A stretch of 64,000 nucleotides of DNA from Ascaris suum (lineage: Eukaryota > Nematoda > Chromadorea > Rhabditida > Ascarididae). The notes beneath the pieces are model-generated. The model did not search any database. It was given only the letters and a program-made list of their open reading frames with translations, and was not told the origin of the DNA. Made by a program: the position numbers and the translations under genes. The stretch covers positions 2,384,501 to 2,448,500 of the forward strand of contig CM024183.1 in the NCBI GenBank assembly GCA_013433145.1, read 5' to 3'. Shown piece after piece: positions 1-53,189 of the stretch (position 1 is the stretch's first letter; each line of letters opens with the position of its first letter).

Positions 1-225
1 TCTTCAGGTCAAGTCCCTTCGCAATGCACGCTGATGAAATCATCGAATATATGCATGATCCTAGAAACTCACCTGTTGATCATGATGGTCTTCAGCTAGC
101 GTCACTGTCGATCGGGATGTTTTTGCGCCAGGTGCTCGTCGATATGCCATTTTCTGTCTCACGGTGATTCACGACTGAGGTAAATTATGATTTCCCCGTC
201 AAGATCGACGTCTGATTTACCCCTA

Positions 226-299
226 GCCGCCATAGCTCAGTCGGTTAGAGCGTGGGTCTAATAAGCCCAAGGTCGCAGGTTCGACCCCTGCTGGCGGCA
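226..299 (+). tRNA. tRNA-Ile(AAT), array 1 copy 1
   Basis: This is the canonical 74-nt body. The acceptor GCCGCCA pairs fully with TGGCGGC and the discriminator base is A. The D stem is GCTC/GAGC. The anticodon stem is TGGGT/GCCCA with a T.G closing pair and loop CTAATAA, giving anticodon AAT (A34 presumably edited to inosine, decoding ATT/ATC/ATA Ile). The variable loop AGGTC is short (class I). The T stem is GCAGG/CCTGC with loop TTCGACC. Internal box A (TAGCTCAGTCGG) and box B (GGTTCGACCCC) match Pol III consensus. CCA is not encoded and there is no intron. Next copy starts 329 bp on. Confidence 0.96.
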
Positions 300-382
300 A
301 GGGTCGGCTCTCAGTCAGGTGAAGCAAAATCTTCAGGTCAGGTCCCTTCGCAATGCACGCTGACGAAATCATCGATTATATG

Positions 383-413
383 CATGATCCTAGAAACTCA
401 CCTGTTGATCATG
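383..413 (+). other. Conserved spacer hairpin (array 1 example)
   Basis: CATGATC and GATCATG form a perfect 7-bp stem around a 17-nt loop. The arms recur in essentially every spacer of both arrays although the loop sequence differs between arrays. Function unknown. This entry is one representative copy. Confidence 0.6.
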
Positions 414-554
414 ATGGTCTTCACTAGCGTCACTGTCGATCGAGGATGTTTTTGCACCAGGTGCTCGTCGATATGCCATTTTCTGTCTCACGGTGATTCA
501 CGACTGAGGTAAATTATGATTTCCCCGTCAAGATCGACGTCTGACTTACCCCTA

Positions 555-628
555 GCCGCCATAGCTCAGTCGGTTAGAGCGTGGGTCTAATAAGCCCAAG
601 GTCGCAGGTTCGACCCCTGCTGGCGGCA
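555..628 (+). tRNA. tRNA-Ile(AAT), array 1 copy 2
   Basis: Canonical body; next copy 343 bp on. Confidence 0.95.
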
Positions 629-897
629 GGGAGAACTCCACAAGGGTCGACTCTCAGTCAGGTGAAGCAAAATCTTCAGGTCAGGTCCCTTCGCAATGCA
701 CGCTGACGAAATCATGGATTATATGCATGATCCTAGAAACTCACCTGTTGATCATGATGGTCTTCAGCCAGCGTCACAGTCGATCGAGGCGGTTTTGCAC
801 CAGGTGCTCGTCGATATGCCATTTTCTGTCTCACGGTGATTCACGACTGAGGTAAATTATGATTTCCCCGTCAAAATCGACGTCTGATTTACCCCTA

Positions 898-971
898 GCC
901 GCCATAGCTCAGTCGGTTAGAGCGTGGGTCTAATAAGCCCAAGGTCGCAGGTTCGACCCCTGCTGGCGGCA
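898..971 (+). tRNA. tRNA-Ile(AAT), array 1 copy 3
   Basis: Canonical body; next copy 340 bp on. Confidence 0.95.
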
Positions 972-1237
972 GGGAGAACTCCACAAGGGTCGACTCTCAG
1001 TCAGGTGAAGCAAAATCTTCAGGTCAGGTCCCTTCGCAATGCACGCTGATGAAATCATCGATTATATGCATGATCCTAGAAACTCACCTGTTGATCATGA
1101 TGGTCTTCAGCTAGCGTCACTGTCGATCAAGGCTTTTTGTGCCAGGTGCTCGTCGATATGCCATTTTCTGTCTCACGGTGATTCACGACTGAGGTAAATT
1201 ATGATTTCCCCGTCAAATCGACGTCTGACTTACCCTA

Positions 1238-1311
1238 GCCGCCATAGCTCAGTCGGTTAGAGCGTGGGTCTAATAAGCCCAAGGTCGCAGGTTCGACCCC
1301 TGCTGGCGGCA
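1238..1311 (+). tRNA. tRNA-Ile(AAT), array 1 copy 4
   Basis: Canonical body; next copy 329 bp on. Confidence 0.95.
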
Positions 1312-1566
1312 ACGGTCGACTCTCAGTCAGGTGAAGCAAAATCTTCAGGTCAAGTCCCTTCGCAATGCACGCTGATGAAATCATCGAATATATGCATGAT
1401 CCTAGAAACTCACCTGTTGATCATGATGGTCTTCAGCTAGCGTCACAGTCGATCGAGGCGGTTTTTGCACCAGGTGCTCGTCGATATGCCATTTTCTGTC
1501 TCACGGTGATTCACGACTGAGGTAAATTATGATTTCCCCGTCAAAATCCACGTCGAGTTACCCCTA

Positions 1567-1640
1567 GCCGCCATAGCTCAGTCGGTTAGAGCGTGGGTCT
1601 AATAAGCCCAAGGTCGCAGGTTCGACCCCTGCTGGCGGCA
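1567..1640 (+). tRNA. tRNA-Ile(AAT), array 1 copy 5
   Basis: Canonical body; next copy 342 bp on. Confidence 0.95.
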
Positions 1641-1908
1641 GGGAGAACTCCACAAGGTCGACTCTCAGTCAGGTGAAGCAAAATCTTCAGGTCAGGTCCC
1701 TTCGCAATGCACGCTGATGAAATCATCGATTATATGCATGATCCTAGAAACTCACCTGTTGATCATGATGGTCTTCAGCCAGCGTCACAGTCGATCGAGG
1801 CGGTTTTGCACCAGGTGCTCGTCGATATGCGATTTTCTGTCTCACGGTGATTCACGACTGAGGTAAATTATGATTTCCCCGTCAAGATCGACGTCTGACT
1901 TACCCCTA

Positions 1909-1982
1909 GCCGCCATAGCTCAGTCGGTTAGAGCGTGGGTCTAATAAGCCCAAGGTCGCAGGTTCGACCCCTGCTGGCGGCA
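1909..1982 (+). tRNA. tRNA-Ile(AAT), array 1 copy 6
   Basis: Canonical body; next copy 329 bp on. Confidence 0.95.
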
Positions 1983-2237
1983 ACGGTCGACTCTGAGTCA
2001 GGTGAAGCAAAATCTTCAGGTCAAATCCCTTCGCAATGCACGCTGATGAAATCATCGATTATATGCATGATCCTAGAAACTCACCTGTTGATCATGATGG
2101 TCTTCAGCCAGCGTCACAGTCGATCGAGGCGGTTTTGCACCAGGTGCTCGTCGATATGCCATTTTCTGTCTCACGGTGATTCACGACTGAGGTAAATTAT
2201 GATTTCCCCGTCAAGATCGACGTCTGAGTTACCCCTA

Positions 2238-2311
2238 GCCGCCATAGCTCAGTCGGTTAGAGCGTGGGTCTAATAAGCCCAAGGTCGCAGGTTCGACCCC
2301 TGCTGGCGGCA
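2238..2311 (+). tRNA. tRNA-Ile(AAT), array 1 copy 7
   Basis: Canonical body; intermediate 3' flank (GGCTCCACAAGG); next copy 338 bp on. Confidence 0.95.
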
Positions 2312-2575
2312 GGCTCCACAAGGGTCGACTCTCAGTCAGGTGAAGCAAAATCTTCAGGTCAAGTCCCTTCGCAATGCACGCTGATGAAATCATCGAATAT
2401 ATGCATGATCCTAGAAACTCACCTGTTGATCATGATGGTCTTCAACTAGCGTCACTGTCGATCGGGATGTTTTTGCGCCAGGTGCTCGTCGATATGCCAT
2501 TTTCTGTCTCACGGTGATTCACGACTGAGGTAAATTATGATTTCCCCGTCAAAATCGACCTCTAATTTACCCCTA

Positions 2576-2649
2576 GCCGCCATAGCTCAGTCGGTTAGAG
2601 CGTGGGTCTAATAAGCCCAAGGTCGCAGGTTCGACCCCTGCTGGCGGCA
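2576..2649 (+). tRNA. tRNA-Ile(AAT), array 1 copy 8
   Basis: Canonical body; next copy 329 bp on. Confidence 0.95.
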
Positions 2650-2904
2650 AGGGTCGGCTCTCAGTCAGGTGAAGCAAAATCTTCAGGTCAGGTCCCTTCG
2701 CAATGCACGCTGACGAAATCATCAATTATATGCATGATCCTAGAAACTCACCTGTTGATCATGATGGTCTTCAGCTAGCGTTACTGTCGATCGAGGCGGT
2801 TTTGCGCCAGGTGCTCGTCGATATGCCATTTTCTGTCTCACGGTGATTCACGACAGAGGTAAATTATGATTTCCCCGTCAAGATCGACGTCTGACTTACC
2901 CCTA

Positions 2905-2977
2905 GCCGCCATAGCTCAGTCGGTCAGAGCGTGGGTCTAATAAGCCCAAGGTCGCAGGTTCGACCCCTGCTGCGGCA
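2905..2977 (+). tRNA. tRNA-Ile(AAT), array 1 copy 9, defective variant
   Basis: 73 nt. One G is missing from the 3' acceptor strand (TGCGGC instead of TGGCGGC), so the 7-bp acceptor stem cannot form fully. The D loop has T to C (CGGTCAGAGC). Possibly a pseudogene, or an assembly error for the missing G. Confidence 0.8.
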
Positions 2978-3246
2978 GGGAGAACTCCACAAGGGTCGAC
3001 TCTCAGTCAGGTGAAGCAAAATCTTCACGTCAGGTCCCTTCGCAATGCACGCTGACGAAATCATCGATTATATGCATGATCCTAGAAACTCACCTGTTGA
3101 TCATGATGGTCTTCAGCCAGCGTCACAGTCGATCGAGGCGGTTTTGCACCAGGTGCTCGTCGATATGCCATTTTCTGTCTCACGGTGATTCACGACTGAG
3201 GTAAATTATGATTTCCCCGTCAAAATCGACGTCTGATTTACCCCTA

Positions 3247-3320
3247 GCCGCCATAGCTCAGTCGGTTAGAGCGTGGGTCTAATAAGCCCAAGGTCGCAGG
3301 TTCGACCCCTGCTGGCGGCA
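3247..3320 (+). tRNA. tRNA-Ile(AAT), array 1 copy 10
   Basis: Canonical body; next copy 340 bp on. Confidence 0.95.
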
Positions 3321-3586
3321 GGGAGAACTCCACAAGGGTCGACTCTCAGTCAGGTGAAGCAAAATCTTCACGTCAGGTCCCTTCGCAATGCACGCTGACG
3401 AAATCATCGATTATATGCATGATCCTAGAAACTCACCTGTTGATCATGATGGTCTTCAGCTAGCGTCACTGTCGATCGGGCTTTTTTGCCAGGTGCTCGT
3501 CGATATGCCATTTTCTGTCTCATGTGATTCACGACTGAGGTAAATTATGATTTCCCCCGTCAAAATCGACGTCTGAGTTACCCCTA

Positions 3587-3660
3587 GCCGCCATAGCTCA
3601 GTCGGTTAGAGCGTGGGTCTAATAAGCCCAAGGTCGCAGGTTCGACCCCTGCTGGCGGCA
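3587..3660 (+). tRNA. tRNA-Ile(AAT), array 1 copy 11
   Basis: Canonical body; next copy 329 bp on. Confidence 0.95.
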
Positions 3661-3915
3661 ACGGTCGACTCTGAGTCAGGTGAAGCAAAATCTTCAGGTC
3701 AAGTCCCTTCGCAATGCACGCTGATGAAATCATCGAATATATGCATGATCCTAGAAACTCACCTGTTGATCATGATGGTCTTCAGCTAGCGTCACTGTCG
3801 ATCGGGCGGTTTTTGCACCAGGTGCTCGTCGATATGCCATTTTCTGTCTCACGGTGATTCACGACTGAGGTAAATTATGATTTCCCCGTCAAAATCGACG
3901 TACGAGTTACCCCTA

Positions 3916-3989
3916 GCCGCCATAGCTCAGTCGGTTAGAGCGTGGGTCTAATAAGCCCAAGGTCGCAGGTTCGACCCCTGCTGGCGGCA
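3916..3989 (+). tRNA. tRNA-Ile(AAT), array 1 copy 12
   Basis: Canonical body; next copy 342 bp on. Confidence 0.95.
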
Positions 3990-4257
3990 GGGAGAACTCC
4001 ACAAGGGTCGACTCTCAGTCAGGTGAAGCAAAATCTTCAGGTCAAATCCCTTCGCAATGCACGCTGATGAAATCATCGATTATATGCATGATCCCAGAAA
4101 CTCACCTGTTGATCATGATGGTCTTCAGCCAGCGTCACAGTCGATCGGGATGTTTTTGCACCAGTGCTCGTCGATATGCCATTTTCTGTCTCACGGTGAT
4201 TCACGACTGAGGTAAATTATGATTTCCCCGTCAAAATCGACCTCTAATTTACCCCTA

Positions 4258-4331
4258 GCCGCCATAGCTCAGTCGGTTAGAGCGTGGGTCTAATAAGCCC
4301 AAGGTCGCAGGTTCGACCCCTGCTGGCGGCA
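4258..4331 (+). tRNA. tRNA-Ile(AAT), array 1 copy 13
   Basis: Canonical body; next copy 342 bp on. Confidence 0.95.
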
Positions 4332-4599
4332 GGGAGAACTCCACAAGGGTCGACTCTCAGTCAGGTGAAGCAAAATCTTCAGGTCAGGTCCCTTCGCAAT
4401 GCACGCTGACGAAATCATGGATTATATGCATGATCCTAGAAACTCACCTGTTGATCATGATGGTCTTCAGCTAGCGTCACTGTCGATCAAGGCTTTTTGT
4501 GCCAGGTGCTCGTCGATATGCCATTTTCTGTCTCACGGTGATTCACGACTGAGGCAAATTATGATTTCCCCGTCAAAATCGACGTCTGAGTTACCCCTA

Positions 4600-4673
4600 G
4601 CCGCCATAGCTCAGTCGGTTAGAGCGTGGGTCTAATAAGCCCAAGGTCGCAGGTTCGACCCCTGCTGGCGGCA
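4600..4673 (+). tRNA. tRNA-Ile(AAT), array 1 copy 14
   Basis: Canonical body; next copy 328 bp on. Confidence 0.95.
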
Positions 4674-4927
4674 ACGGTCGACTCTGAGTCAGGTGAAGCA
4701 AAATCTTCAGGTCAAGTCCCTTCGCAATGCACGCTGATGAAATCATCGAATATATGCATGATCCTAGAAACTCACCTGTTGATCATGATGGTCTTCAACT
4801 AGCGTCACAGTCGATCGGATGTTTTTGCACCAGGTGCTCGTCGATATGCCATTTTCTGTCTCACGGTGATTCACGACTGAGGTAAATTATGATTTCCCCG
4901 TCAAAATCCACGTACGAGTTACCCCTA

Positions 4928-5002
4928 GCCGCCATAAGCTCAGTCGGTTAGAGCGTGGGTCTAATAAGCCCAAGGTCGCAGGTTCGACCCCTGCTGGCGG
5001 CA
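4928..5002 (+). tRNA. tRNA-Ile(AAT), array 1 copy 15, +1 nt variant
   Basis: 75 nt. An extra A lies between acceptor and D stem (CATAAGCTC), which shifts the position 8-9 linker and the start of box A. Probably impaired, or an assembly error. Confidence 0.82.
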
Positions 5003-5272
5003 GGGAGAACTCCACAAGGGTCGACTCTCAGTCAGGTGAAGCAAAATCTTTAGGTCAAGTCCCTTCGCAATGCACGCTGATGAAATCATCGATTATATGC
5101 ATGATCCTAGAAACTCACCTGTTGATCATGATGGTCTTCAGCCAGCGTCACAGTCGATCGAGGCGGTTTTGCACCAGGTGCTCGTCGATATGCGATTTTC
5201 TGTCTCACGGTGATTCACGACTGAGGTAAATTTATGATTTCCCCGTCAAGATCGACGTCTGACTTACCCCTA

Positions 5273-5346
5273 GCCGCCATAGCTCAGTCGGTCAGAGCGT
5301 GGGTCTAATAAGCCCAAGGTCGCAGGTTCGACCCCTGCTGGCGGCA
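5273..5346 (+). tRNA. tRNA-Ile(AAT), array 1 copy 16, D-loop variant
   Basis: Only change is T to C in the D loop (CGGTCAGAGC), the same substitution as the copy at 2905. All stems are intact; next copy 329 bp on. Confidence 0.92.
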
Positions 5347-5601
5347 ACGGTCGACTCTGAGTCAGGTGAAGCAAAATCTTCAGGTCAAGTCCCTTCGCAA
5401 TGCACGCTGATGAAATCATCGATTATATGCATGATCCCAGAAACTCACCTGTTGATCATGATGGTCTTCAGCCAGCGTCACAGTCGATCGGGATGTTTTT
5501 GCACCAGGTGCTCGTCGATATGCCATTTTCTGTCTCGCGGTGATTCACGACTGAGGTAAATTATGATTTCCCCGTCAAAATCGACCTCTAATTTACCCCT
5601 A

Positions 5602-5675
5602 GCCGCCATAGCTCAGTCGGTTAGAGCGTGGGTCTAATAAGCCCAAGGTCGCAGGTTCGACCCCTGCTGGCGGCA
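5602..5675 (+). tRNA. tRNA-Ile(AAT), array 1 copy 17
   Basis: Canonical body; next copy 343 bp on. Confidence 0.95.
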
Positions 5676-5944
5676 GGGAGAACTCCACAAGGATCGACTC
5701 TCAGTCAGGTGAAGCAAAATCTTCAGGTCAGGTTCCTTCGCAATGCACGCTGATGAGATCATCGATTATATGCATGATCCTAGAAACTCAACTGTTGATC
5801 ATGATGGTCTTCCACTAGTGTCACTGTCGATCGGGATGTTTTTGCACCAGGTGCTCGTCGATATGCCATTTTCTGTCTCACGGTGATTCACGACTGAGGT
5901 AAATTATGATTTCCCCGTCAAGATCGACGTCTGACTTACCCCTA

Positions 5945-6018
5945 GCCGCCATAGCTCAGTCGGTTAGAGCGTGGGTCTAATAAGCCCAAGGTCGCAGGTT
6001 CGACCCCTGCTGGCGGCA
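5945..6018 (+). tRNA. tRNA-Ile(AAT), array 1 copy 18
   Basis: Canonical body; next copy 344 bp on. Confidence 0.95.
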
Positions 6019-6288
6019 GGGAGAACTCCACAAGGGTCGACTCTCAGTCAGGTGAAGCAAAATCTTCAGGTCAAGTCCCTTCGCAATGCACGCTGATGAA
6101 ATCATCGAATATATGCATGATCCTAGAAACTCACCTGTTGATCATGATGGTCTTCAACTAGCGTCACTGTCGATCGGGATGTTTTTTGCGCCAGGTGCTC
6201 GTCGATATGCCATTTTCTGTCTCACGGTGATTCACGACTGAGGTAAATTATGATTTCCCCGTCAAAATCGACCTCTAACTTACCCCTA

Positions 6289-6362
6289 GCCGCCATAGCT
6301 CAGTCGGTTAGAGCGTGGGTCTAATAAGCCCAAGGTCGCAGGTTCGACCCCTGCTGGCGGCA
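6289..6362 (+). tRNA. tRNA-Ile(AAT), array 1 copy 19
   Basis: Canonical body; next copy 329 bp on. Confidence 0.95.
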
Positions 6363-6617
6363 AGGGTCGGCTCTCAGTCAGGTGAAGCAAAATCTTCAGG
6401 TCAGGTCCCTTCGCAATGCACGCTGACGAAATCATCAATTATATGCATGATCCTAGAAACTCACCTGTTGATCATGATGGTCTTCAGCTAGCGTTACTGT
6501 CGATCGAGGCGGTTTTGCGCCAGGTGCTCGTCGATATGCCATTTTCTGTCTCACGGTGATTCACGACTGAGGTAAATTATGATTTCCCCGTAAAGATCGA
6601 CGCCTGAGTTACCCCTA

Positions 6618-6691
6618 GCCGCCATAGCTCTGTCGGTTAGAGCGTGGGTCTAATAAGCCCAAGGTCGCAGGTTCGACCCCTGCTGGCGGCA
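6618..6691 (+). tRNA. tRNA-Ile(AAT), array 1 copy 20, A14 variant
   Basis: The first D-loop base is T instead of A (GCTCTGTCGG). A14 normally pairs with U8 in the tRNA core and lies in box A, so both folding and TFIIIC binding may be weakened. Confidence 0.88.
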
Positions 6692-6947
6692 AGGGTCGAC
6701 TATCAGTCAGGTGAATCAAAATCTTCAGGTCAAGTTCCTTCGCAATGCACGCTGATGAAATCATCGAATATATGCATGATCGTAGAAACTCAAATGTTGA
6801 TCATGATGGTCTTCAGCTAGCGTCACTGTCGATCGAGGCGGTTTTTGCGCCAGGTGCTCGTCGATATGCCATTTTCTGTCTCACGGTGATTCACGACTGA
6901 GGTAAATTATGATTTCCCCGTCAAAATCAACGTCTGAGTTACCCCTA

Positions 6948-7021
6948 GCCGCCATAGCTCAGTCGGTTAGAGCGTGGGTCTAATAAGCCCAAGGTCGCAG
7001 GTTCGACCCCTGCTGGCGGCA
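6948..7021 (+). tRNA. tRNA-Ile(AAT), array 1 copy 21
   Basis: Canonical body; next copy 342 bp on. Confidence 0.95.
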
Positions 7022-7289
7022 GGGAGAACTCCACAAGGGTGACTCTCAGTCAGGTGAAGCAAAATCTTCAGGTCAGGTCCCTTCGCAATGCACGCTGATG
7101 AAATCATCGATTATATGCATGATCCTAGAAACTCACCTATTGATCATGATGGTCTTCAACTAGCGTCACTGTCAATCGAGGCGGTTTTGCGCCATCTGCT
7201 CGTCGATATGCCATTTTATATCTCACGGTGATTCACGACTGAGGTAAATTATGATTTCCCCGTGAAGATCGACGTCTGACTTACCCCTA

Positions 7290-7363
7290 GCCGCCATAGC
7301 TCAGTCGTTTAGAGCGTGGGTCTAATAAGCCCAAGGTCCCAGGTTCGACCCCTGCTGGCGGCA
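7290..7363 (+). tRNA. tRNA-Ile(AAT), array 1 copy 22, decayed edge copy
   Basis: Last copy of the array. A D-loop G is replaced by T (GTCGTTTAG), and the first T-stem base is C instead of G (GTCCCAGG), which breaks one T-stem pair. Likely a decaying edge copy. Confidence 0.82.
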
Positions 7364-7571
7364 GGGAAAACTCCACAAGGGTCGACTCTCAGTCAGGTGA
7401 AGCAAAATCTTCAGGTCAGGTCCCTTCGCAATGCACGCTGATGAAATCATCGATTATATGCATGATCCTAGAAAACTCACCTGTTGATCATGATGGTCTT
7501 CAACTAGCGTCATTTTCGATCGGGATGTTTTTGCACCAGGTGCTCGTCGATATGCCATTTTCTGTCTCATG

Positions 7572-7805
7572 GTCACTAGCAGATTTGCTCGCCACTTTTT
7601 TTCACAATAACGTCACCATACTACATGACTTGAAATCTTATGAATTCCCTAGGTTTCGTTAATTCGCTCAACTATGAGTAACCACTATGCGGATCAAGAC
7701 TCCACAAAGACGTTGCTTTATTATTTATCACCGCAAAACATTAATTATAGAGAGGAATTCTTGCTTTCACAGTGGCATAGTACGATCTGTGAACAGTGTA
7801 TAAAC
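7572..7805. other. Array 1 right flank, no gene seen
   Basis: Sequence leaves the tRNA unit at about 7571 and becomes unique AT-rich DNA. I see no gene, transposon end or target duplication at the junction. Confidence 0.5.
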
Positions 7806-7856
<51 letters not shown>

Positions 7857-7871
7857 CATATATATAATATA

Positions 7872-7909
<38 letters not shown>

Positions 7910-7911
7910 TA
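7806..7911. repeat. (AT)n microsatellite
   Basis: About 105 bp of nearly pure alternating AT, interrupted by a few AA/TT phase shifts. Tyr-Ile repeat ORFs across it are artefacts. Confidence 0.97.
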
Positions 7912-8843
7912 CGCGTGTGTATATATGAGTTATACAGCAAGACCACAAATCCGATCGGAGATAAGAGTAGTCGAAGGAATCAAAATATTGCATGAGGATA
8001 ATTTTTGCAATCATTTTTGTTAAATGTCAAGCAAAAATAAACGAGTAGGTTGTTGAGAAGTGAATTCTTCCTTATCTAAAGTTTCTTGCCGATGGGATGT
8101 TTGTTTTATACTACCGATGACTCTCCGAGATTATCCTTTTATCAGCTGGTACAAGAATTCATAGGTCATTGAATTTCATAATGGTAAACATTTTTTTTAA
8201 TGAGAATATGTAAACAAAGCGGCAAATAAATTTGTGATGGAATGCTCTGAGGTATGCATATTTTTGAGGAGGTAGCCATGAAAATTTAGAAAAAAGCTGT
8301 CGGTTAAATTTAAAGCAAAGAACTGATCGTTTTGACTGCATTGATATATATTTCTTATTTGTAAGGATTTTCCGAGATGCGCATTTGCAGCACAAAATGT
8401 GTTGGTCAAAACGCGGAATTGATGAGGAAAAAAGGGGGGAGGGGCAGGAGGATAGAGGTGATGAAACGAAAATTTTTTCTCATTTTCTCACCGTTATGCC
8501 TTTCTTAGCTTGATATTGCTCGTTCATAGTGAGCATGTATATTGAGAGTTATGGCTTACTCAGGATTGTTGATCCGACGACCAGATCATTGATATGAACG
8601 CAAGAAATGCAGAATCTACATTGTTTCGCGCGACTGAATTTCTAATGTATCCATGTTCATGAGACTCTTTTTTGTGAAATTTCAGATTCATTTCTTTCTT
8701 AAATTGTAGAAAAAAAACGTGAATGACATGGAAAGAATTCTGGAAGGTTAAGAAGCATAAAGACATTTGAGAAAATAGCAAAGCAGAACCAGTAAATGGA
8801 AATAAAATCAGCAGCAATCTGAATTTGCAACACAGGGCCGAAG
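7912..8843. other. AT-rich DNA with no recognisable gene
   Basis: Only short, uncharacteristic open frames are present on either strand. No RNA gene or mobile-element hallmark was seen. Confidence 0.4.
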
Positions 8844-9643
8844 TCAGAAACTGCATTTTAACGAATATTTCGAAGCTTGTTCTGATCCTCTATGACAGCG
8901 GTCCTTATCACGACGTAATAAACTTTCTGTAATATCTACAGAAGGTTTTGATCCTATGGAGACCGAACCTGGAACAGAGAGTGCCGAGATCTGCAAAATT
9001 TCTATGTTGATAGCACCCTTGGAGCCTAAGCTCCTTTCATTTCGTTGAGGAAAAGTTAATAGCGAACAAAGGATTTTATTTCTAACTATAAATTCGAATG
9101 AAGATTTGCTGCACTTAACTTGGAAGAGGCATTTATCAGATAATTTTGCAGTAACCCAAATATTACCGAAAGTTCTTGCTTTGGTGAAGGAGTCTTTGTT
9201 GACGATATAAGGAGAGAAACCAAGAGGCGTACCCATCGCTGAGTACTCCAGAGTGGACATTGCGACGAAAAAACACCGTAATGAAAACTCGGTAGATTCC
9301 TTCCTACCAAGAAACAATATGCCATTCGCTTTTTCCAACTGCTTGCCGTTCCATTTACGGTTTCCTTTAATATCCGAAAGCATGAGGAATAACCACTTCC
9401 TCGTAGGAATAACCACAAGGTTGTTTGCAATACAGCGGTCAAAAATTCAGCATTCCACATACAACCGGTTACAAACCAAAGCTGGCATGAGCATTTTTTT
9501 CTTATACCTTTCAGCTTCGATGAACTTATTGAGACTGTAATAGATCCTAACAAAACGATGGGAGGAAAGGTCTTTTCTATTGGAAGCTGCATCTGGGAGA
9601 TCTTGTTACCGTATACTTTGTCGTTCGCAGATTGAAACAACAA
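8844..9643 (-). other. Overlapping long open frames, unidentified
   Basis: Two minus-strand frames stay open for 190 codons (8844-9416) and 185 codons (9086-9643), and a 95-codon plus-strand frame overlaps them. For AT-rich nematode DNA this is longer than expected by chance, so an old coding exon or a transposon relic is possible. I recognise no motif or family in either frame. The simultaneous openness of several frames weakens the coding case. No start, splice site or partner exon can be assigned. Confidence 0.2.
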
Positions 9644-15292: not shown

Positions 15293-15394
15293 ATTGGCGA
15301 TGAGACTTCGGATTCGCGACAGATGGTAGGCCTACCCTACTTCCTAGTTCTACTACTTCAACTTCACCAGGAACAGTAGGCTCTGACACAACAG

Positions 15395-43554: not shown

Positions 43555-43807
43555 GAGAGAACTCCACAAGGGTCGACTGGCAGCCGTGTGAAGCGAAATC
43601 TTCAGGTCTAATCCCTTCGCAATGCACGCTGATGAAATCATCGAATATATTCATGATCCTACAAACTCCTCTGTTGATCATGATGGTCTTCAGCCAGCGT
43701 CACTGTCGATCGGGATGGTTTTGCACCAGGTGCTCGTCGATATGTCATTTTCTGTCTCAGAGATAAACTAGATTTCCCCGTCAAAATTGACGTCAGAGTT
43801 ACCCTCA

Positions 43808-43881
43808 GCCGCCATAGCTCAGTCGGTTAGAGCGTGGGTCTAATAAGCCCAAGGTCGCAGGTTCGACCCCTGCTGGCGGCA
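43808..43881 (+). tRNA. tRNA-Ile(AAT), array 2 copy 35
   Basis: Canonical body; next copy 342 bp on. Confidence 0.95.
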
Positions 43882-44149
43882 GAGAGAACTCCACAAGGGT
43901 CGACTGGCAGCCGTGTGAAGCGAAATCTTCAGGTCTAATCCCTTCGCAATGCACGCTGATGAAATCATCGAATATATTCATGATCCTTCAAACTCCTCTG
44001 TTGATCATGATGGTCTTCAGCCAGCGTCACTGTCGATCGGGACGGTTTTGCACAGGTGCTCGTCGATATGTCATTTTCTGTCTTATGATGATTCACGACT
44101 GAGATAAACTACGATTTCCCCGTCAAAATTGACGTCAGAGTTACCCTCA

Positions 44150-44223
44150 GCCGCCATAGCTCAGTCGGTTAGAGCGTGGGTCTAATAAGCCCAAGGTCGC
44201 AGGTTCGACCCCTGCTGGCGGCA
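44150..44223 (+). tRNA. tRNA-Ile(AAT), array 2 copy 36
   Basis: Canonical body; next copy 329 bp on. Confidence 0.95.
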
Positions 44224-44478
44224 GAGAGAACTCCACAAGGGTCGACTGGCAGCCGTGTGAAGCGAAATCTTCAGGTCTAATCCCTTCGCAATGCACGCTG
44301 ATGAAATCATCGAATATATTCATGATCCTACAAACTCCTCTGTTGATCATGATGGTCTTCAGCCAGCGTCACTGTCGATCGGGATGGTTTTGCACCAGGT
44401 GCTCGTCGATATGTCATTTTCTGTCTCCGAGGATAAACTATGATTTCCCCGTCAAAATTGACGTCAGAGTTACCCTCA

Positions 44479-44552
44479 GCCGCCATAGCTCAGTCGGTTA
44501 GAGCGTGGGTCTAATAAGCCCAAGGTCGCAGGTTCGACCCCTGCTGGCGGCA
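44479..44552 (+). tRNA. tRNA-Ile(AAT), array 2 copy 37
   Basis: Canonical body; next copy 330 bp on. Confidence 0.95.
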
Positions 44553-44808
44553 GAGAGAACTCCACAAGGGTCGACTGGCAGCCGTGTGAAGCGAAATCTT
44601 CAGGTCTAATCCCTTCGCGATGCACGCTGATGAAATCATCGAATATATTCATGATCCTACAACTCCTCTGTTGATCATGATGATCTTCAGCCAGCGTCAC
44701 TGTCGATCGGGACGTTTTTGCACAAGGTGCTCGTCGATATGTCATTTTCTGTCTCATGATGAATAAACTATGATTTCCCCGTCAAAATTGACGTCAGAGT
44801 TACCCTCA

Positions 44809-44882
44809 GCCGCCATAGCTCAGTCGGTTAGAGCGTGGGTCTAATAAGCCCAAGGTCGCAGGTTCGACCCCTGCTGGCGGCA
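44809..44882 (+). tRNA. tRNA-Ile(AAT), array 2 copy 38
   Basis: Canonical body; next copy 330 bp on. Confidence 0.95.
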
Positions 44883-45138
44883 GAGAGAACTCCACAAGGG
44901 TCGACTGGCAGCCGTGTGAAGCGAAATCTTCAGGTCTAATCCCTTCGCAATGCACGCTGATGAAATCATCGAATATATTCATGATCCTACAAACTCCTCT
45001 GTTGATCATGATGATCTTCAGCCAGCGTCACTGTCGATCGGGACGGTTTTGCACCAGGTGCTCGTCGATATGTCATTTTCTGTCTCATGACGATAAACTA
45101 TGATTTCCCCGTCAAAATTGACGTCAGAGTTACCCTCA

Positions 45139-45212
45139 GCCGCCATAGCTCAGTCGGTTAGAGCGTGGGTCTAATAAGCCCAAGGTCGCAGGTTCGACCC
45201 CTGCTGGCGGCA
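45139..45212 (+). tRNA. tRNA-Ile(AAT), array 2 copy 39
   Basis: Canonical body; next copy 329 bp on. Confidence 0.95.
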
Positions 45213-45467
45213 GAGAGAACTCCACAAGGGTCGACTGGCAGCCGTGTGAAGCGAAATCTTCAGGTCTAATCCCTTCGCAATGCACGCTGATGAAATCATC
45301 GAATATATTCATGATCCTACAAACTCCTCTGTTGATCATGATGGTCTTCAGCCAGCGTCACTGTCGATCGGGACGGTTTTGCACCAGGTGCTCGTCGATA
45401 TGTCATTTTCTGTCTCCGAGGATAAACTATCAATTCCCCGTCAAAATTGACGTCAGAGTTACCCTCA

Positions 45468-45541
45468 GCCGCCATAGCTCAGTCGGTTAGAGCGTGGGTC
45501 TAATAAGCCCAAGGTCGCAGGTTCGACCCCTGCTGGCGGCA
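45468..45541 (+). tRNA. tRNA-Ile(AAT), array 2 copy 40
   Basis: Canonical body; next copy 329 bp on. Confidence 0.95.
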
Positions 45542-45796
45542 GAGAGAACTCCACAAGGGTCGACTGGCAGCCGTGTGAAGCGAAATCTTCAGGTCTAATC
45601 CCTTCGCAATGCACGCTGATGAAATCATCGAATATATTCATGATCCTACAAACTCCTCTGTTGATCATGATGGTCTTCAGCCAGCGTCACTGTCGATCGG
45701 GATGGTTTTGCACCAGGTGCTCGTCGATATGTCATTTTCTGTCTCAGACGATAAACTACGATTTCCCCGTCAAAATTGACGTCAGAGTTACCCTCA

Positions 45797-45870
45797 GCCG
45801 CCATAGCTCAGTCGGTTAGAGCGTGGGTCTAATAAGCCCAAGGTCGCAGGTTCGACCCCTGCTGGCGGCA
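45797..45870 (+). tRNA. tRNA-Ile(AAT), array 2 copy 41
   Basis: Canonical body; next copy 329 bp on. Confidence 0.95.
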
Positions 45871-46125
45871 GAGAGAACTCCACAAGGGTCGACTGGCAGC
45901 CGTGTGAAGCGAAATCTTCAGGTCTAATCCCTTCGCAATGCACGCTGATGAAATCATCGAATATATTCATGATCCTACAAACTCCTCTGTTGATCATGAT
46001 GGTCTTCAGCCAGCGTCACTGTCGATCGGGACGGTTTTGCACCAGGTGCTCGTCGATATGTCATTTTCTGTCTCAGACGATAAACTATGATTTCCCCGTC
46101 AAAATTGACGTCAGAGTTACCCTCA

Positions 46126-46199
46126 GCCGCCATAGCTCAGTCGGTTAGAGCGTGGGTCTAATAAGCCCAAGGTCGCAGGTTCGACCCCTGCTGGCGGCA
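46126..46199 (+). tRNA. tRNA-Ile(AAT), array 2 copy 42
   Basis: Canonical body; next copy 337 bp on (intermediate spacer). Confidence 0.95.
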
Positions 46200-46462
46200 G
46201 AGAGAACTCCACAAGGGTCGACTGGCAGCCGTGTGAAGCGAAATCTTCAGGTCTAATCCCTTCGCAATGCACGCTGATGAAATCATCGAATATATGCATG
46301 ATCCTTCAAACTCCCCTGTTGATCATGATGGTCTTCAGCCAGCGTCACTGTCGATCGGGATGGTTTTGCACCAGGTGCTCGTCGATATGTCATTTTCTGT
46401 CTGATGATTCACGAGAGATAAACTATCATTCCCCGTCAAAATTGACGTCAGAGTTACCCTCA

Positions 46463-46536
46463 GCCGCCATAGCTCAGTCGGTTAGAGCGTGGGTCTAATA
46501 AGCCCAAGGTCGCAGGTTCGACCCCTGCTGGCGGCA
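46463..46536 (+). tRNA. tRNA-Ile(AAT), array 2 copy 43
   Basis: Canonical body; next copy 329 bp on. Confidence 0.95.
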
Positions 46537-46791
46537 GAGAGAACTCCACAAGGGTCGACTGGCAGCCGTGTGAAGCGAAATCTTCAGGTCTAATCCCTTC
46601 GCAATGCACGCTGATGAAATCATCGAATATATTCATGATCCTTCAAACTCCTCTGTTGATCATGATGGTCTTCAGCCAGCGTCACTGTCGATCGGGATGG
46701 TTTTGCACCAGGTGCTCGTCGATATGTCATTTTCTGTCTCATGAGATTAAACTATGATTCCCCGTCAAAATTGACGTCAGAGTTACCCTCA

Positions 46792-46865
46792 GCCGCCATA
46801 GCTCAGTCGGTTAGAGCGTGGGTCTAATAAGCCCAAGGTCGCAGGTTCGACCCCTGCTGGCGGCA
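46792..46865 (+). tRNA. tRNA-Ile(AAT), array 2 copy 44
   Basis: Canonical body; next copy 331 bp on. Confidence 0.95.
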
Positions 46866-47122
46866 GAGAGAACTCCACAAGGGTCGACTGGCAGCCGTGT
46901 GAAGCGAAATCTTCAGGTCTAATCCCTTCGCAATGCACGCTGATGAAATCATCGAATATATTCATGATCCTACAAACTCCTCTGTTGATCATGATGGTCT
47001 TCAGCCAGCGTCACTGTCGATCGGGACGGTTTTGCACCAGGTGCTCGTCGATATGTCATTTTCTGTCTCACGACTGATAAACTACGATTTCCCCGTCAAA
47101 ATTGACGTCAGAGTTACCCTCA

Positions 47123-47196
47123 GCCGCCATAGCTCAGTCGGTTAGAGCGTGGGTCTAATAAGCCCAAGGTCGCAGGTTCGACCCCTGCTGGCGGCA
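47123..47196 (+). tRNA. tRNA-Ile(AAT), array 2 copy 45
   Basis: Canonical body; next copy 328 bp on. Confidence 0.95.
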
Positions 47197-47450
47197 GAGA
47201 GAACTCCACAAGGGTCGACTGGCAGCCGTGTGAAGCGAAATCTTCAGGTCTAATCCCTTCGCAATGCACGCTGATGAAATCATCGAATATATTCATGATC
47301 CTACAAACTCCTCTGTTGATCATGATGGTCTTCAGCCAGCGTCACTGTCGATCGGGACGGTTTTGCACCAGGTGCTCGTCGATATGTCATTTTCTGTCTC
47401 AGAGATAAACTATCATTTCCCCGTCAAAATTGACGTCAGAGTTACCCTCA

Positions 47451-47524
47451 GCCGCCATAGCTCAGTCGGTTAGAGCGTGGGTCTAATAAGCCCAAGGTCG
47501 CAGGTTCGACCCCTGCTGGCGGCA
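47451..47524 (+). tRNA. tRNA-Ile(AAT), array 2 copy 46
   Basis: Canonical body; followed by the shortest spacer (next copy 322 bp on), which lacks one hairpin arm. Confidence 0.95.
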
Positions 47525-47772
47525 GAGAGAACTCCACAAGGGTCGACTGGCAGCCGTGTGAAGCGAAATCTTCAGGTCTAATCCCTTCGCAATGCGCGCT
47601 GATGAAATCATCGAATATATGCATACAAACTCCCTGTTGATCATGATGGTCTTCAGCCAGCGTCACTGTCGATCGGGATGGTTTTGCACCAGGTGCTCGT
47701 CGATATGTCATTTTCTGTCTCAGAGGATAAACTATCACTTCCCCGTCAAAATTGACGTCAGAGTTACCCTCA

Positions 47773-47846
47773 GCCGCCATAGCTCAGTCGGTTAGAGCGT
47801 GGGTCTAATAAGCCCAAGGTCGCAGGTTCGACCCCTGCTGGCGGCA
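47773..47846 (+). tRNA. tRNA-Ile(AAT), array 2 copy 47
   Basis: Canonical body; next copy 327 bp on. Confidence 0.95.
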
Positions 47847-48099
47847 GAGAGAACTCCACAAGGGTCGACTGGCAGCCGTGTGAAGCGAAATCTTCAGGTC
47901 TAATCCCTTCGCAATGCGCTGATGAAATCATCGAATATATTCATGATCCTACAAACTCCTCTGTTGATCATGATGATCTTCAGCCAGCGTCACTGTCGAT
48001 CGGGACGGTTTTGCACCAGGTGCTCGTCGATATGTCATTTTCTGTCTCCGAGGATAAACTATCATTTCCCCGTCAAAATTGACGTCAGAGTTACCCTCA

Positions 48100-48173
48100 G
48101 CCGCCATAGCTCAGTCGGTTAGAGCGTGGGTCTAATAAGCCCAAGGTCGCAGGTTCGACCCCTGCTGGCGGCA
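48100..48173 (+). tRNA. tRNA-Ile(AAT), array 2 copy 48
   Basis: Canonical body; next copy 329 bp on. Confidence 0.95.
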
Positions 48174-48428
48174 GAGAGAACTCCACAAGGGTCGACTGGC
48201 AGCCGTGTGAAGCGAAATCTTCAGGTCTAATCCCTTCGCGATGCACGCTGATGAAATCATCGAATATATTCATGATCCTACAAACTCCTCTGTTGATCAT
48301 GATGGTCTTCAGCCAGCGTCACTGTCGATCGGGACGGTTTTGCACCAGGTGCTCGTCGATATGTCATTTTCTGTCTCAGAGGATAAACTATCATTTCCCC
48401 GTCAAAATTGACGTCAGAGTTACCCTCA

Positions 48429-48502
48429 GCCGCCATAGCTCAGTCGGTTAGAGCGTGGGTCTAATAAGCCCAAGGTCGCAGGTTCGACCCCTGCTGGCGG
48501 CA
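48429..48502 (+). tRNA. tRNA-Ile(AAT), array 2 copy 49
   Basis: Canonical body; next copy 345 bp on. Confidence 0.95.
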
Positions 48503-48773
48503 GAGAGAACTCCACAAGGGTCGACTGGCAGCCGTGTGAAGCGAAATCTTCAGGTCTAATCCCTTCGCGAATGCACGCTGATGAAATCATCGAATATATT
48601 CATGATCCTACAAACTCCTCTGTTGATCATGATGGTCTTCAGCCAGCGTCACTGTCGATCGGGACGGTTTTGCACCAGGTGCTCGTCGATATGTCATTTT
48701 CTGTCTTATGATGATTCACGACTGAGAATAAACTACGATTTCCCCGTCAAAATTGACGTCAGAGTTACCCTCA

Positions 48774-48847
48774 GCCGCCATAGCTCAGTCGGTTAGAGCG
48801 TGGGTCTAATAAGCCCAAGGTCGCAGGTTCGACCCCTGCTGGCGGCA
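48774..48847 (+). tRNA. tRNA-Ile(AAT), array 2 copy 50
   Basis: Canonical body; next copy 329 bp on. Confidence 0.95.
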
Positions 48848-49102
48848 GAGAGAACTCCACAAGGGTCGACTGGCAGCCGTGTGAAGCGAAATCTTCAGGT
48901 CTAATCCCTTCGCGATGCACGCTGATGAAATCATCGAATATATTCATGATCCTACAAACTCCTCTGTTGATCATGATGGTCTTCAGCCAGCGTCACTGTC
49001 GATCGGGATGGTTTTGCACCAGGTGCTCGTCGATATGTCATTTTCTGATCTCAGAGATAAACTATCATTTCCCCGTCAAAATTGACGTCAGAGTTACCCT
49101 CA

Positions 49103-49176
49103 GCCGCCATAGCTCAGTCGGTTAGAGCGTGGGTCTAATAAGCCCAAGGTCGCAGGTTCGACCCCTGCTGGCGGCA
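49103..49176 (+). tRNA. tRNA-Ile(AAT), array 2 copy 51
   Basis: Canonical body; next copy 329 bp on. Confidence 0.95.
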
Positions 49177-49431
49177 GAGAGAACTCCACAAGGGTCGACT
49201 GGCAGCCGTGTGAAGCGAAATCTTCAGGTCTAATCCCTTCGCAATGCACGCTGATGAAATCATCGAATATATTCATGATCCTTCAAACTCCTCTGTTGAT
49301 CATGATGGTCTTCAGCCAGCGTCACTGTCGATCGGGATGGTTTTGCACCAGGTGCTCGTCGATATGTCATTTTCTGTCTCAGAGGATAAACTATCACTTC
49401 CCCGTCAAAATTGACGTCAGAGTTACCCTCA

Positions 49432-49505
49432 GCCGCCATAGCTCAGTCGGTTAGAGCGTGGGTCTAATAAGCCCAAGGTCGCAGGTTCGACCCCTGCTGG
49501 CGGCA
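49432..49505 (+). tRNA. tRNA-Ile(AAT), array 2 copy 52
   Basis: Canonical body; next copy 328 bp on. Confidence 0.95.
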
Positions 49506-49759
49506 GAGAGAACTCCACAAGGGTCGACTGGCAGCCGTGTGAAGCGAAATCTTCAGGTCTAATCCCTTCGCAATGCACGCTGATGAAATCATCGAATATA
49601 TTCATGATCCTACAAACTCCTCTGTTGATCATGATGGTCTTCAGCCAGCGTCACTGTCGATCGGGACGGTTTTGCACCAGGTGCTCGTCGATATGTCATT
49701 TTCTGTCTCAGAGGATAAACTATCATTTCCCGTCAAAATTGACGTCAGAGTTACCCTCA

Positions 49760-49833
49760 GCCGCCATAGCTCAGTCGGTTAGAGCGTGGGTCTAATAAGC
49801 CCAAGGTCGCAGGTTCGACCCCTGCTGGCGGCA
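49760..49833 (+). tRNA. tRNA-Ile(AAT), array 2 copy 53
   Basis: Canonical body; next copy 343 bp on. Confidence 0.95.
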
Positions 49834-50102
49834 GAGAGAACTCCACAAGGGTCGACTGGCAGCCGTGTGAAGCGAAATCTTCAGGTCTAATCCCTTCGCA
49901 ATGCACGCTGATGAAATCATCGAATATATTCATGATCCTACAAACTCCTCTGTTGATCATGATGGTCTTCAGCCAGCGTCACTGTCGATCGGGACGGTTT
50001 TGCACCAGGTGCTCGTCGATATGTCATTTTCTGTCTTATGATGATTCACGACTGAGAATAAACTACGATTCCCCGTCAAAATTGACGTCAGAGTTACCCT
50101 CA

Positions 50103-50176
50103 GCCGCCATAGCTCAGTCGGTTAGAGCGTGGGTCTAATAAGCCCAAGGTCGCAGGTTCGACCCCTGCTGGCGGCA
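50103..50176 (+). tRNA. tRNA-Ile(AAT), array 2 copy 54
   Basis: Canonical body; next copy 329 bp on. Confidence 0.95.
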
Positions 50177-50431
50177 GAGAGAACTCCACAAGGGTCGACT
50201 GGCAGCCGTGTGAAGCGAAATCTTCAGGTCTAATCCCTTCGCAATGCACGCTGATGAAATCATCGAATATATTCATGATCCTACAAACTCCTCTGTTGAT
50301 CATGATGGTCTTCAGCCAGCGTCACTGTCGATCGGGACGGTTTTGCACCAGGTGCTCGTCGATATGTCATTTTCTGTCTCAGAGGATAAACTATCACTTC
50401 CCCGTCAAAATTGACGTCAGAGTTACCCTCA

Positions 50432-50505
50432 GCCGCCATAGCTCAGTCGGTTAGAGCGTGGGTCTAATAAGCCCAAGGTCGCAGGTTCGACCCCTGCTGG
50501 CGGCA
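50432..50505 (+). tRNA. tRNA-Ile(AAT), array 2 copy 55
   Basis: Canonical body; next copy 332 bp on. Confidence 0.95.
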
Positions 50506-50763
50506 GAGAGAACTCCACAAGGGTCGACTGGCAGCCGTGTGAAGCGAAATCTTCAGGTCTAATCCCTTCGCAATGCACGCTGATGAAATCATCGAATATA
50601 TTCATGATCCTACAAACTCCTCTGTTGATCATGATGGTCTTCAGCCAGCGTCACTGTCGATCGGGACGGTTTTGCACCAGGTGCTCGTCGATATGTCATT
50701 TTCTGTCTCATGATGATTCAAACTACGATTTCCCCGTCAAAATTGACGTCAGAGTTACCCTCA

Positions 50764-50837
50764 GCCGCCATAGCTCAGTCGGTTAGAGCGTGGGTCTAAT
50801 AAGCCCAAGGTCGCAGGTTCGACCCCTGCTGGCGGCA
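50764..50837 (+). tRNA. tRNA-Ile(AAT), array 2 copy 56
   Basis: Canonical body; next copy 329 bp on. Confidence 0.95.
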
Positions 50838-51092
50838 GAGAGAACTCCACAAGGGTCGACTGGCAGCCGTGTGAAGCGAAATCTTCAGGTCTAATCCCTT
50901 CGCAATGCACGCTGATGAAATCATCGAATATATGCATGATCCTTCAAACTCCCCTGTTGATCATGATGGTCTTCAGCCAGCGTCACTGTCGATCGGGACG
51001 GTTTTGCACCAGGTGCTCGTCGATATGTCATTTTCTGTCTCAGAGGATAAACTATCACTTCCCCGTCAAAATTGACGTCAGAGTTACCCTCA

Positions 51093-51166
51093 GCCGCCAT
51101 AGCTCAGTCGGTTAGAGCGTGGGTCTAATAAGCCCAAGGTCGCAGGTTCGACCCCTGCTGGCGGCA
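51093..51166 (+). tRNA. tRNA-Ile(AAT), array 2 copy 57
   Basis: Canonical body; next copy 341 bp on. Confidence 0.95.
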
Positions 51167-51433
51167 GAGAGAACTCCACAAGGGTCGACTGGCAGCCGTG
51201 TGAAGCGAAATCTTCAGGTCTAATCCCTTCGCAATGCACGCTGATGAAATCATCGAATATATTCATGATCCTACAAACTCCTCTGTTGATCATGATGGTC
51301 TTCAGCCAGCGTCACTGTCGATCGGGACGGTTTTGCACCAGGTGCTCGTCGATATGTCATTTTCTGTCTCATGATGATTCACGACTGAGAATAAACGATT
51401 TCCCCGTCAAAATTGACGTCAGAGTTACCCTCA

Positions 51434-51507
51434 GCCGCCATAGCTCAGTCGGTTAGAGCGTGGGTCTAATAAGCCCAAGGTCGCAGGTTCGACCCCTGCT
51501 GGCGGCA
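51434..51507 (+). tRNA. tRNA-Ile(AAT), array 2 copy 58
   Basis: Canonical body; next copy 326 bp on. Confidence 0.95.
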
Positions 51508-51759
51508 GAGAGAACTCCACAAGGGTCGACTGGCAGCCGTGTGAAGCGAAATCTTCAGGTCTAATCCCTTCGCAATGCACGCTGATGAAATCATCGAATA
51601 TATGCATGATCCTCAAACTCCTCTGTTGATCATGATGATCTTCAGCCAGCGTCACTGTCGATCGGGACGGTTTTGCACCAGGTGCTCGTCGATATGTCAT
51701 TTTCTGTCTCAGGATAAACTATCATTTCCCCGTCAAAATTGACGTCAGAGTTACCCTCA

Positions 51760-51833
51760 GCCGCCATAGCTCAGTCGGTTAGAGCGTGGGTCTAATAAGC
51801 CCAAGGTCGCAGGTTCGACCCCTGCTGGCGGCA
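51760..51833 (+). tRNA. tRNA-Ile(AAT), array 2 copy 59
   Basis: Canonical body; next copy 329 bp on. Confidence 0.95.
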
Positions 51834-52088
51834 GAGAGAACTCCACAAGGGTCGACTGGCAGCCGTGTGAAGCGAAATCTTCAGGTCTAATCCCTTCGCG
51901 ATGCACGCTGATGAAATCATCGAATATATTCATGATCCTACAAACTCCTCTGTTGATCATGATGGTCTTCAGCCAGCGTCACTGTCGATCGGGACGGTTT
52001 TGCACCAGGTGCTCGTCGATATGTCATTTTCTGTCTCAGAGGATAAACTATCACTTCCCCGTCAAAATTGACGTCAGAGTTACCCTCA

Positions 52089-52162
52089 GCCGCCATAGCT
52101 CAGTCGGTTAGAGCGTGGGTCTAATAAGCCCAAGGTCGCAGGTTCGACCCCTGCTGGCGGCA
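52089..52162 (+). tRNA. tRNA-Ile(AAT), array 2 copy 60
   Basis: Canonical body; next copy 343 bp on. Confidence 0.95.
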
Positions 52163-52431
52163 GAGAGAACTCCACAAGGGTCGACTGGCAGCCGTGTGAA
52201 GCGAAATCTTCAGGTCTAATCCCTTCGCAATGCACGCTGATGAAATCATCGAATATATCATGATCCTTCAAACTCCTCTGTTGATCATGATGGTCTTCAG
52301 CCAGCGTCACTGTCGATCGGGACGGTTTTGCACCAGGTGCTCGTCGATATGTCATTTTCTGTCTTATGATGATTCACGACTGAGAATAAACTACGATTTC
52401 CCCGTCAAAATTGACGTCAGAGTTACCCTCA

Positions 52432-52505
52432 GCCGCCATAGCTCAGTCGGTTAGAGCGTGGGTCTAATAAGCCCAAGGTCGCAGGTTCGACCCCTGCTGG
52501 CGGCA
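52432..52505 (+). tRNA. tRNA-Ile(AAT), array 2 copy 61
   Basis: Canonical body; next copy 329 bp on. Confidence 0.95.
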
Positions 52506-52760
52506 GAGAGAACTCCACAAGGGTCGACTGGCAGCCGTGTGAAGCGAAATCTTCAGGTCTAATCCCTTCGCAATGCACGCTGATGAAATCATCGAATATA
52601 TGCATGATCCTTCAAACTCCCCTGTTGATCATGATGGTCTTCAGCCAGCGTCACTGTCGATCGGGATGGTTTTGCACCAGGTGCTCGTCGATATGTCATT
52701 TTCTGTCTCAGAGGATAAACTATCACTTCCCCGTCAAAATTGACGTCAGAGTTACCCTCA

Positions 52761-52834
52761 GCCGCCATAGCTCAGTCGGTTAGAGCGTGGGTCTAATAAG
52801 CCCAAGGTCGCAGGTTCGACCCCTGCTGGCGGCA
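52761..52834 (+). tRNA. tRNA-Ile(AAT), array 2 copy 62
   Basis: Canonical body, last of the array; its 3' spacer is cut at 52923, before the right arm of the spacer hairpin and before the T4 run. Confidence 0.95.
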
Positions 52835-53189
52835 GAGAGAACTCCACAAGGGTCGACTGGCAGCCGTGTGAAGCAAAATCTTCAGGTCTAATCCCTTCGC
52901 AATGCACGCTGATGAAATCATCGGAAGTAAGCGTGAGCTTCCAAGAGCCGATGTTGCTAGGTAGTGTTTGCGGCATTGCCGTGTCGATGAAACGGATTTC
53001 AGGAACGGATCAAGGTCATTTCCTTGAGGAAAACTGGCTAGTTATGTGACGGTAGCTGGCAGTTGAATAACATCGTTTTACCTTGAAATCTCGATTCAGA
53101 AGAAAACGCCTCAGCCATTTCAAAAGCGAATCGCAAAAAGCATGTGGGTGTGATCTATGGAAGAGCTGATTAAGGGGAATAACGTTGAA

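Follow-up and report, generated by a model that had tools for sequence, protein, structure and literature searches.

What are long, satellite-like arrays of a single tRNA gene doing in a nematode genome, and are they made of working genes? The question is raised by a 64,000-nucleotide stretch of Ascaris suum DNA (assembly GCA_013433145.1, contig CM024183.1, here C21; C21:2384501-2448500, hereafter the window), which carries two arrays of tRNA-Ile(AAT) genes and which we analysed together with the rest of the genome (277.8 Mb in 97 contigs searched). Ile(AAT) turns out to be one of several isoacceptors arrayed in this way. We argue that these are probably functional nuclear tRNA gene arrays, maintained by selection together with concerted evolution, that would provide tRNA in bulk at low output per gene.

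Copies and constraint in the Ile(AAT) arrays

Within the window, the Rfam model RF00005 identifies 84 tRNA-Ile(AAT) genes, all on the plus strand, of which 22 lie at 226-7363 (array A) and 62 at 32320-52834 (array B). The cloverleaf score exceeds the curated cut-off of 29 bits for 84/84 of these genes and is 71.8 bits for 78 of them. ARAGORN counts 83 tRNA genes in the window, all Ile(AAT), the one missed being the degenerate copy that opens array B, and Tandem Repeats Finder (TRF) delimits tandem repeats, built of 329- and 343-bp units, at 1-7573 and 32321-52923. A first-pass annotation, made from the letters of the window, had reported these same-strand copies; its counts, positions, and unit sizes are borne out, and the long homogeneous single-isoacceptor arrays that it thought unusual for a nematode are real.

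The 73-nt Ile body has 77 exact matches in the window and 100 genome-wide (82 on C21, 13 on contig C93, and five dispersed, one each on C1, C3, C9, C20, and C23); because the reversed pattern has 0 exact matches in the whole genome, chance is excluded as the source of the copies. Array A reaches ∼2.1 kb past the left window edge, to ∼C21:2382354, and so gains seven further copies, the outermost partial, for a total of 29 copies (∼9.7 kb); array B totals 62. A third, distinct Ile array of 51 copies, on the other strand, fills the unplaced contig C93 (17,248 bp). In both A and B, ∼14 bp separates short (329 bp) from long (343 bp) units, at a different place in each: next to the 3' end of the tRNA in A, and in B ∼90 nt before the tRNA that follows. 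Long and short units show no significant clustering in a runs test (the probability of so few runs is 0.99 in A, where they alternate more than expected, and 0.17 in B), and within an array the spacers of units far apart differ no more than those of near ones, giving no signature of local duplication. Decayed relics that retain spacer remnants were found on another contig, as two units at C1:8705.4-8705.9 kb whose tRNAs are 93% and 82% identical, with more worn tRNAs near C1:8967.2 kb. The relic units indicate that such arrays also die.

To count substitutions, inner units were compared with the consensus of their own array, after dropping columns with at least 10% gaps, the first and last listed units of each array, and its final copy, which has no following unit. 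Array A has changes at 3/1,870 tRNA sites as compared to 208/6,666 spacer sites, array B at 0/4,307 as compared to 289/15,064, and the C93 array at 59/3,427 as compared to 608/12,693. When the consensus sequences of the three arrays are compared with one another, none of the 73 tRNA sites differs, as against 27-37 of 255-271 spacer sites. Concerted evolution alone would leave body and spacer equally uniform; we therefore conclude that the tRNA body is under selection, and the figures for array B show purifying selection across the whole of it. The uniform drift along the unit expected of a gene-free satellite is found in none of the three arrays, since body and spacer rates differ in each.

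Arrays of other isoacceptors

Eight isoacceptors were probed, a partial count, and seven probes matched; six of these seven isoacceptors are arrayed (Ile, Lys, Arg, Leu, initiator Met, and Gly), the exception being Thr. The expansion of Ile(AAT) reported in the first-pass annotation is thus real but not unique: leaving Ile aside, arrays exist for five of the six isoacceptors whose probes matched. It was their arrays that drew attention to Ile, Lys, and Arg; among the four others (Leu, initiator Met, Gly, and Thr) three are arrayed. Further arrays were revealed by a genome tRNA covariance search (63 of 14,580 candidates scored).

The exact copies of Lys(TTT) number 33 and fall into two C1 arrays, one of 29 and one of 4, the second of which also contains imperfect copies. 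The two arrays share their bodies exactly, while their spacers agree at 194/232 aligned sites (38 differ; one unit pair compared). At least three dispersed Lys genes were read (no mismatch search for others was made), each with one difference from the array body. All 83 exact copies of Arg(TCT) fall within C22:4188251-4204150, with a unit of ∼194 bp, and a search that permitted three mismatches added just two dispersed genes. Since the exact array-type Lys and Arg bodies occur only in arrays, these isodecoders, if used, must stem from there.

Leu(AAG), probed solely because one such gene adjoins a dispersed Ile gene, has 89 exact copies: 67 and 21 in two C5 arrays, and one dispersed. The 19 Leu units read in three stretches comprise 13 exact AAG units, five with an identical body and the anticodon TAG, and one with an extra T that makes an 8-nt anticodon loop. 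All of the TAG units belong to the first array (14 units read), and none of the five units read in the second array is of this kind. Gaps among the exact AAG copies suggest that there are further non-AAG Leu units.

An array on C1 with the anticodon CAT, which we take to be initiator Met from the probe that it matches, has at least 38 copies ∼184 bp apart, and two further genes are dispersed (40 of 78 candidates scored). Gly(GCC) is represented by at least 44 genes (44 rows from 193 candidates; anticodon read in eight genes): 32 on the minus strand in an array at C14:3287153-3296211, mostly ∼236 bp apart, seven on the C14 plus strand in small groups, and five elsewhere. For Thr(TGT) there are two exact copies, both dispersed, and no array. 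An approximate Asp core probe gave no match with two mismatches permitted.

A common spacer origin for the Ile, Lys, and Arg arrays was considered and rejected, as local alignments of Ile with Lys and of Ile with Arg were no better than shuffles, although a TTTTGCAYC string is visible in both Ile and Lys spacers. This suggests that the spacers of the three isoacceptors are unrelated, and that several independent tandem amplifications may have taken place in this nematode.

Terminators, body markers, and the role of the arrays

Array genes are unlike ordinary tRNA genes twice over, in a far terminator and, in several isoacceptors, in marker nucleotides. The first run of four T (T4) lies at most 12 nt from the tRNA in 15 of the 17 dispersed genes read; a T4 as near as this arises by chance in just 2-14% of shuffles, from which we conclude that the near T4 of dispersed genes is selected. 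None of the array copies measured has a T4 that close, the first one lying from +13 to beyond +150: at 13-16 nt in Arg (seven copies), 20-21 in Leu (17), 44-46 in initiator Met (four), 62 in Gly (one unit, not locus L075), 154-182 in Lys (eight; a ninth stretch ends before any T4), and mostly 150-167 in Ile (range 46-243 among 77 window copies). Throughout the Ile units of the three arrays (28 + 61 + 50), T4 is never within 40 nt, so that a near terminator like that of dispersed genes is absent, and the T4 of the example gene in Table 1 recurs at the equivalent place in most units of A and B. For all six isoacceptors with both classes, T4 is farther off in the array than at the median of dispersed genes (1/64 in a one-sided sign test). 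Shuffled array spacers match or exceed the observed T4 distance at a frequency of 0.44-0.97, and the Ile and Lys distances are at the chance level.

Array and dispersed bodies differ by 1-3 nt in four isoacceptors, at positions (numbered along the gene) 69 in Lys (A/G), 59 in Arg (G/C), 16 in initiator Met (C/T), and 5, 53, and 66 in Gly; for Ile and Leu(AAG), the bodies of the two classes are identical. The changes at Gly 5 and 66 are paired, preserving a base pair in the acceptor stem. By our reading, Gly 53 lies within box B and the T loop; C stands in this loop in all three Gly(GCC) array genes read (L073, C14:3293500-3294120), as against T in both dispersed genes read.

Under the reading that we favour, one isoacceptor family per array would have been amplified in tandem, several times independently, with the copies homogenised by unequal exchange and/or gene conversion while purifying selection acted on the tRNA body. 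The arrays would then form a bulk class alongside a small class of dispersed tRNA genes. Bulk supply is the best fit among the three roles proposed in the first-pass annotation (the others being a TFIIIC-bound insulator or chromatin domain, and a selfish satellite with a captured tRNA gene). Without a near T4, RNA polymerase III (Pol III) would probably read tens to ∼170 nt further, leaving a long trailer for RNase Z to cut off. In yeast, Pol III is known to run on for 50-200 nt, the extended transcripts being rapidly processed or degraded (PMC4937561). Because Pol III termination is coupled to re-initiation, a facilitated recycling that is reported to raise output at least fivefold (PMC5356446), each array gene would be expected to fire weakly, and copy number may offset this weak output. 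In the related ascarid Baylisascaris schroederi, 6190 tRNA genes are reported, with copy numbers that reflect codon usage (PMC9684166).

Several observations weigh against functional arrays of this kind. Bodies in the C93 array are often imperfect, being exact in only 13/50 units; most of the single-base deletions there fall within short runs of one base, and this noise fits an unpolished contig, with true decay as the alternative. Two of the five dispersed Ile genes have no near T4 either (+35 and +132). The array T4 of Arg, Leu, initiator Met, and Gly (13-62 nt) is nearer than the shuffled-spacer median, so these terminators may have been displaced rather than lost. A far terminator could equally be a sign of silent array genes; by itself it does not exclude function, because other species also have tRNA genes with no T4 close by (PMC4937561). 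The changed T loop and box B position in Gly could weaken transcription, and the count of isoacceptors is, as said, partial.

More tentatively, the two classes might be separately regulated, with dispersed genes (near T4) for housekeeping and arrays (far T4, marker bodies) turned on for large-scale output in, say, oocytes or early embryos; we regard this extension as possible but doubtful. It would make the arrays a counterpart of the oocyte-type 5S rRNA genes of Xenopus, where oocyte-type and somatic-type genes have established stage-specific expression. The two systems are alike in having a high-copy tandem class and a low-copy class with slightly different bodies. Restriction of the array class to oocytes, germ line, or gut is speculative.

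Of the competing accounts, the least improbable is a selfish or neutral satellite that encloses a role-less tRNA gene and spreads by slippage or rolling-circle re-insertion. It would suit the satellite-like unit length, the decayed edge copies, and the relic units on C1, but the body drift that it predicts is not seen: the whole tRNA body is kept while spacers drift. Several isoacceptors are arrayed, moreover, with unrelated spacers in the three compared, and we consider a satellite with a captured gene unlikely. A tRNA-derived short interspersed nuclear element, for which one would expect dispersed copies with a body unrelated to tRNA and a tail of poly-A or simple repeats, was rejected separately, as the copies stand head to tail, and a DNA search with two array units (which skips very common words) found elsewhere only tRNA bodies and relics.

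Less likely again are chromatin elements, in which dense TFIIIC/Pol III sites would act as an insulator, replication pause, or domain anchor. tRNA genes serve as insulators elsewhere, and the box A/B pairs recur here at a regular spacing of 184-343 bp. Clusters of tRNA genes have also been associated with replication fork pausing (PMC2888827). Such elements need just boxes A and B, yet 73/73 positions are kept in array B, and the Gly arrays carry the paired acceptor-stem change.

We give little credence to a dicistronic unit with a second RNA in the long trailer. With a first T4 at +150-167, all three Ile arrays would have room for one, and trailer parts are kept in the C1 relic units, but the Ile T4 position fits shuffled spacers. 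A structured second RNA in the Ile trailer is not supported, since the trailer folds as shuffled sequences do (z -0.73 to +1.10) and Rfam finds only tRNA above threshold and, on the tRNA strand, at a permissive threshold as well. Duplicated or mis-joined repeats are very improbable, even though the C93 array is unplaced and unpolished in appearance: 28/28 A units and 58/61 B units are distinct, the Ile arrays contain no N runs, both C21 arrays pass into non-array sequence at each end, the array consensus sequences differ, and an unplaced array points to under- rather than over-counting.

Known systems and neighbouring features

Arrays of tRNA genes are of a known kind, with precedents in Entamoeba, the Arabidopsis SYY (tRNA-Ser/tRNA-Tyr) cluster, and the clusters of fish and Nematostella. 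In Entamoeba, tRNA genes are tandemly arrayed with several array types per genome (PMC2652664), and in Ascaris six isoacceptors are arrayed. The likeness to Entamoeba drawn in the first-pass annotation therefore stands for the presence of several distinct tandem arrays. It does not extend to unit structure, which in Entamoeba consists of multi-gene units with short tandem repeats between them; here each unit has one gene, and TRF reports only the 329/343-bp period in the Ile arrays, with no microsatellite spacer. Nor are almost all tRNA genes arrayed in Ascaris, as there are dispersed genes for Ile, Lys, Arg, Leu, initiator Met, and Gly, and Thr(TGT) was found only dispersed.

The Arabidopsis SYY genes likewise form a tandem cluster, with bodies or introns unlike those of dispersed copies and with degenerate flanking copies, and cluster-specific expression has been shown for them (PMC12308677). 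They differ in having a three-gene unit in a single cluster, as compared to single-gene units for several isoacceptors on several chromosomes in Ascaris. Among animals, fish and Nematostella have been described with fifty and more tRNA genes to a cluster, in some species mostly running parallel; pairs in zebrafish and Nematostella are mostly heterogeneous, whereas the arrays here are homogeneous (PMC2888827). No earlier description of Ascaris tRNA arrays was found in the literature searched, whose reach left out most subscription journals. As far as that literature shows, what is new is the occurrence of several single-isoacceptor arrays in one nematode, the split in terminators between the two classes, and the marker bodies.

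Much of an animal's tRNA supply would come from satellite-like arrays if their genes are active. The Arabidopsis SYY cluster has raised the question of whether tRNA genes in high and in low copy number supply different tissues, and the marker nucleotides make this directly testable. With AAG or TAG on an otherwise identical body, the first Leu array offers a view of anticodon change inside a concertedly evolving family. Features of the Ile arrays in the window and of this Leu array are collected in Table 1.

Table 1. Coordinates of array features (window positions unless a contig is given)
Feature	Position	Strand	Remarks
Array A, portion inside the window	1..7573	+	22 Ile(AAT) units of ∼329 or 343 bp, 17 exact bodies
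Array A, final copy	7290..7363	+	2 mismatches in body; edge decay
Stretch between arrays A and B	7574..32319		tRNA-free; long terminal repeat (LTR) element and gene fragments inside
Array B	32320..52923	+	62 Ile(AAT) units, 60 exact bodies; first copy degenerate
Array B, first copy	32320..32393	+	Degenerate: 41.2 bits as compared to 71.8 for intact copies
Intact tRNA-Ile(AAT) example, first full copy of array B	32647..32720	+	
First T4 3' of the 32647..32720 gene	32885..32888	+	166 nt downstream; no nearer run of four T
Leu array stretches with TAG units and the 8-nt-loop unit	C5:11473300-11474500 (L077), C5:11464650-11466200 (L066)		

The LTR element between the two Ile arrays occupies window positions 15897-21510, bounded by direct repeats of ∼590 bp (15897-16483 and 20922-21510) whose pieces are 94-100% identical, and it contains a frame, at 18952-20844, with a match to a family of viral fusion glycoproteins (PF24664). 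A fragment on the minus strand at 23466-23891 matches DUF273 (PF03314). Beyond array B, the window contains an exon with an XPC-binding domain (PF09280) at 61069-61434, presumably part of a RAD23-like gene. Elsewhere in the genome, matches to major sperm protein form inverted pairs ∼3 kb apart (C6:9542963-9546387 and C7:13234048-13237316). A C. elegans-like form of this protein matches at only 77-80% along most of its length, and the major sperm protein of this genome, joined from two exons, is identical at 126/126 residues to PDB 1msp, an Ascaris suum protein.

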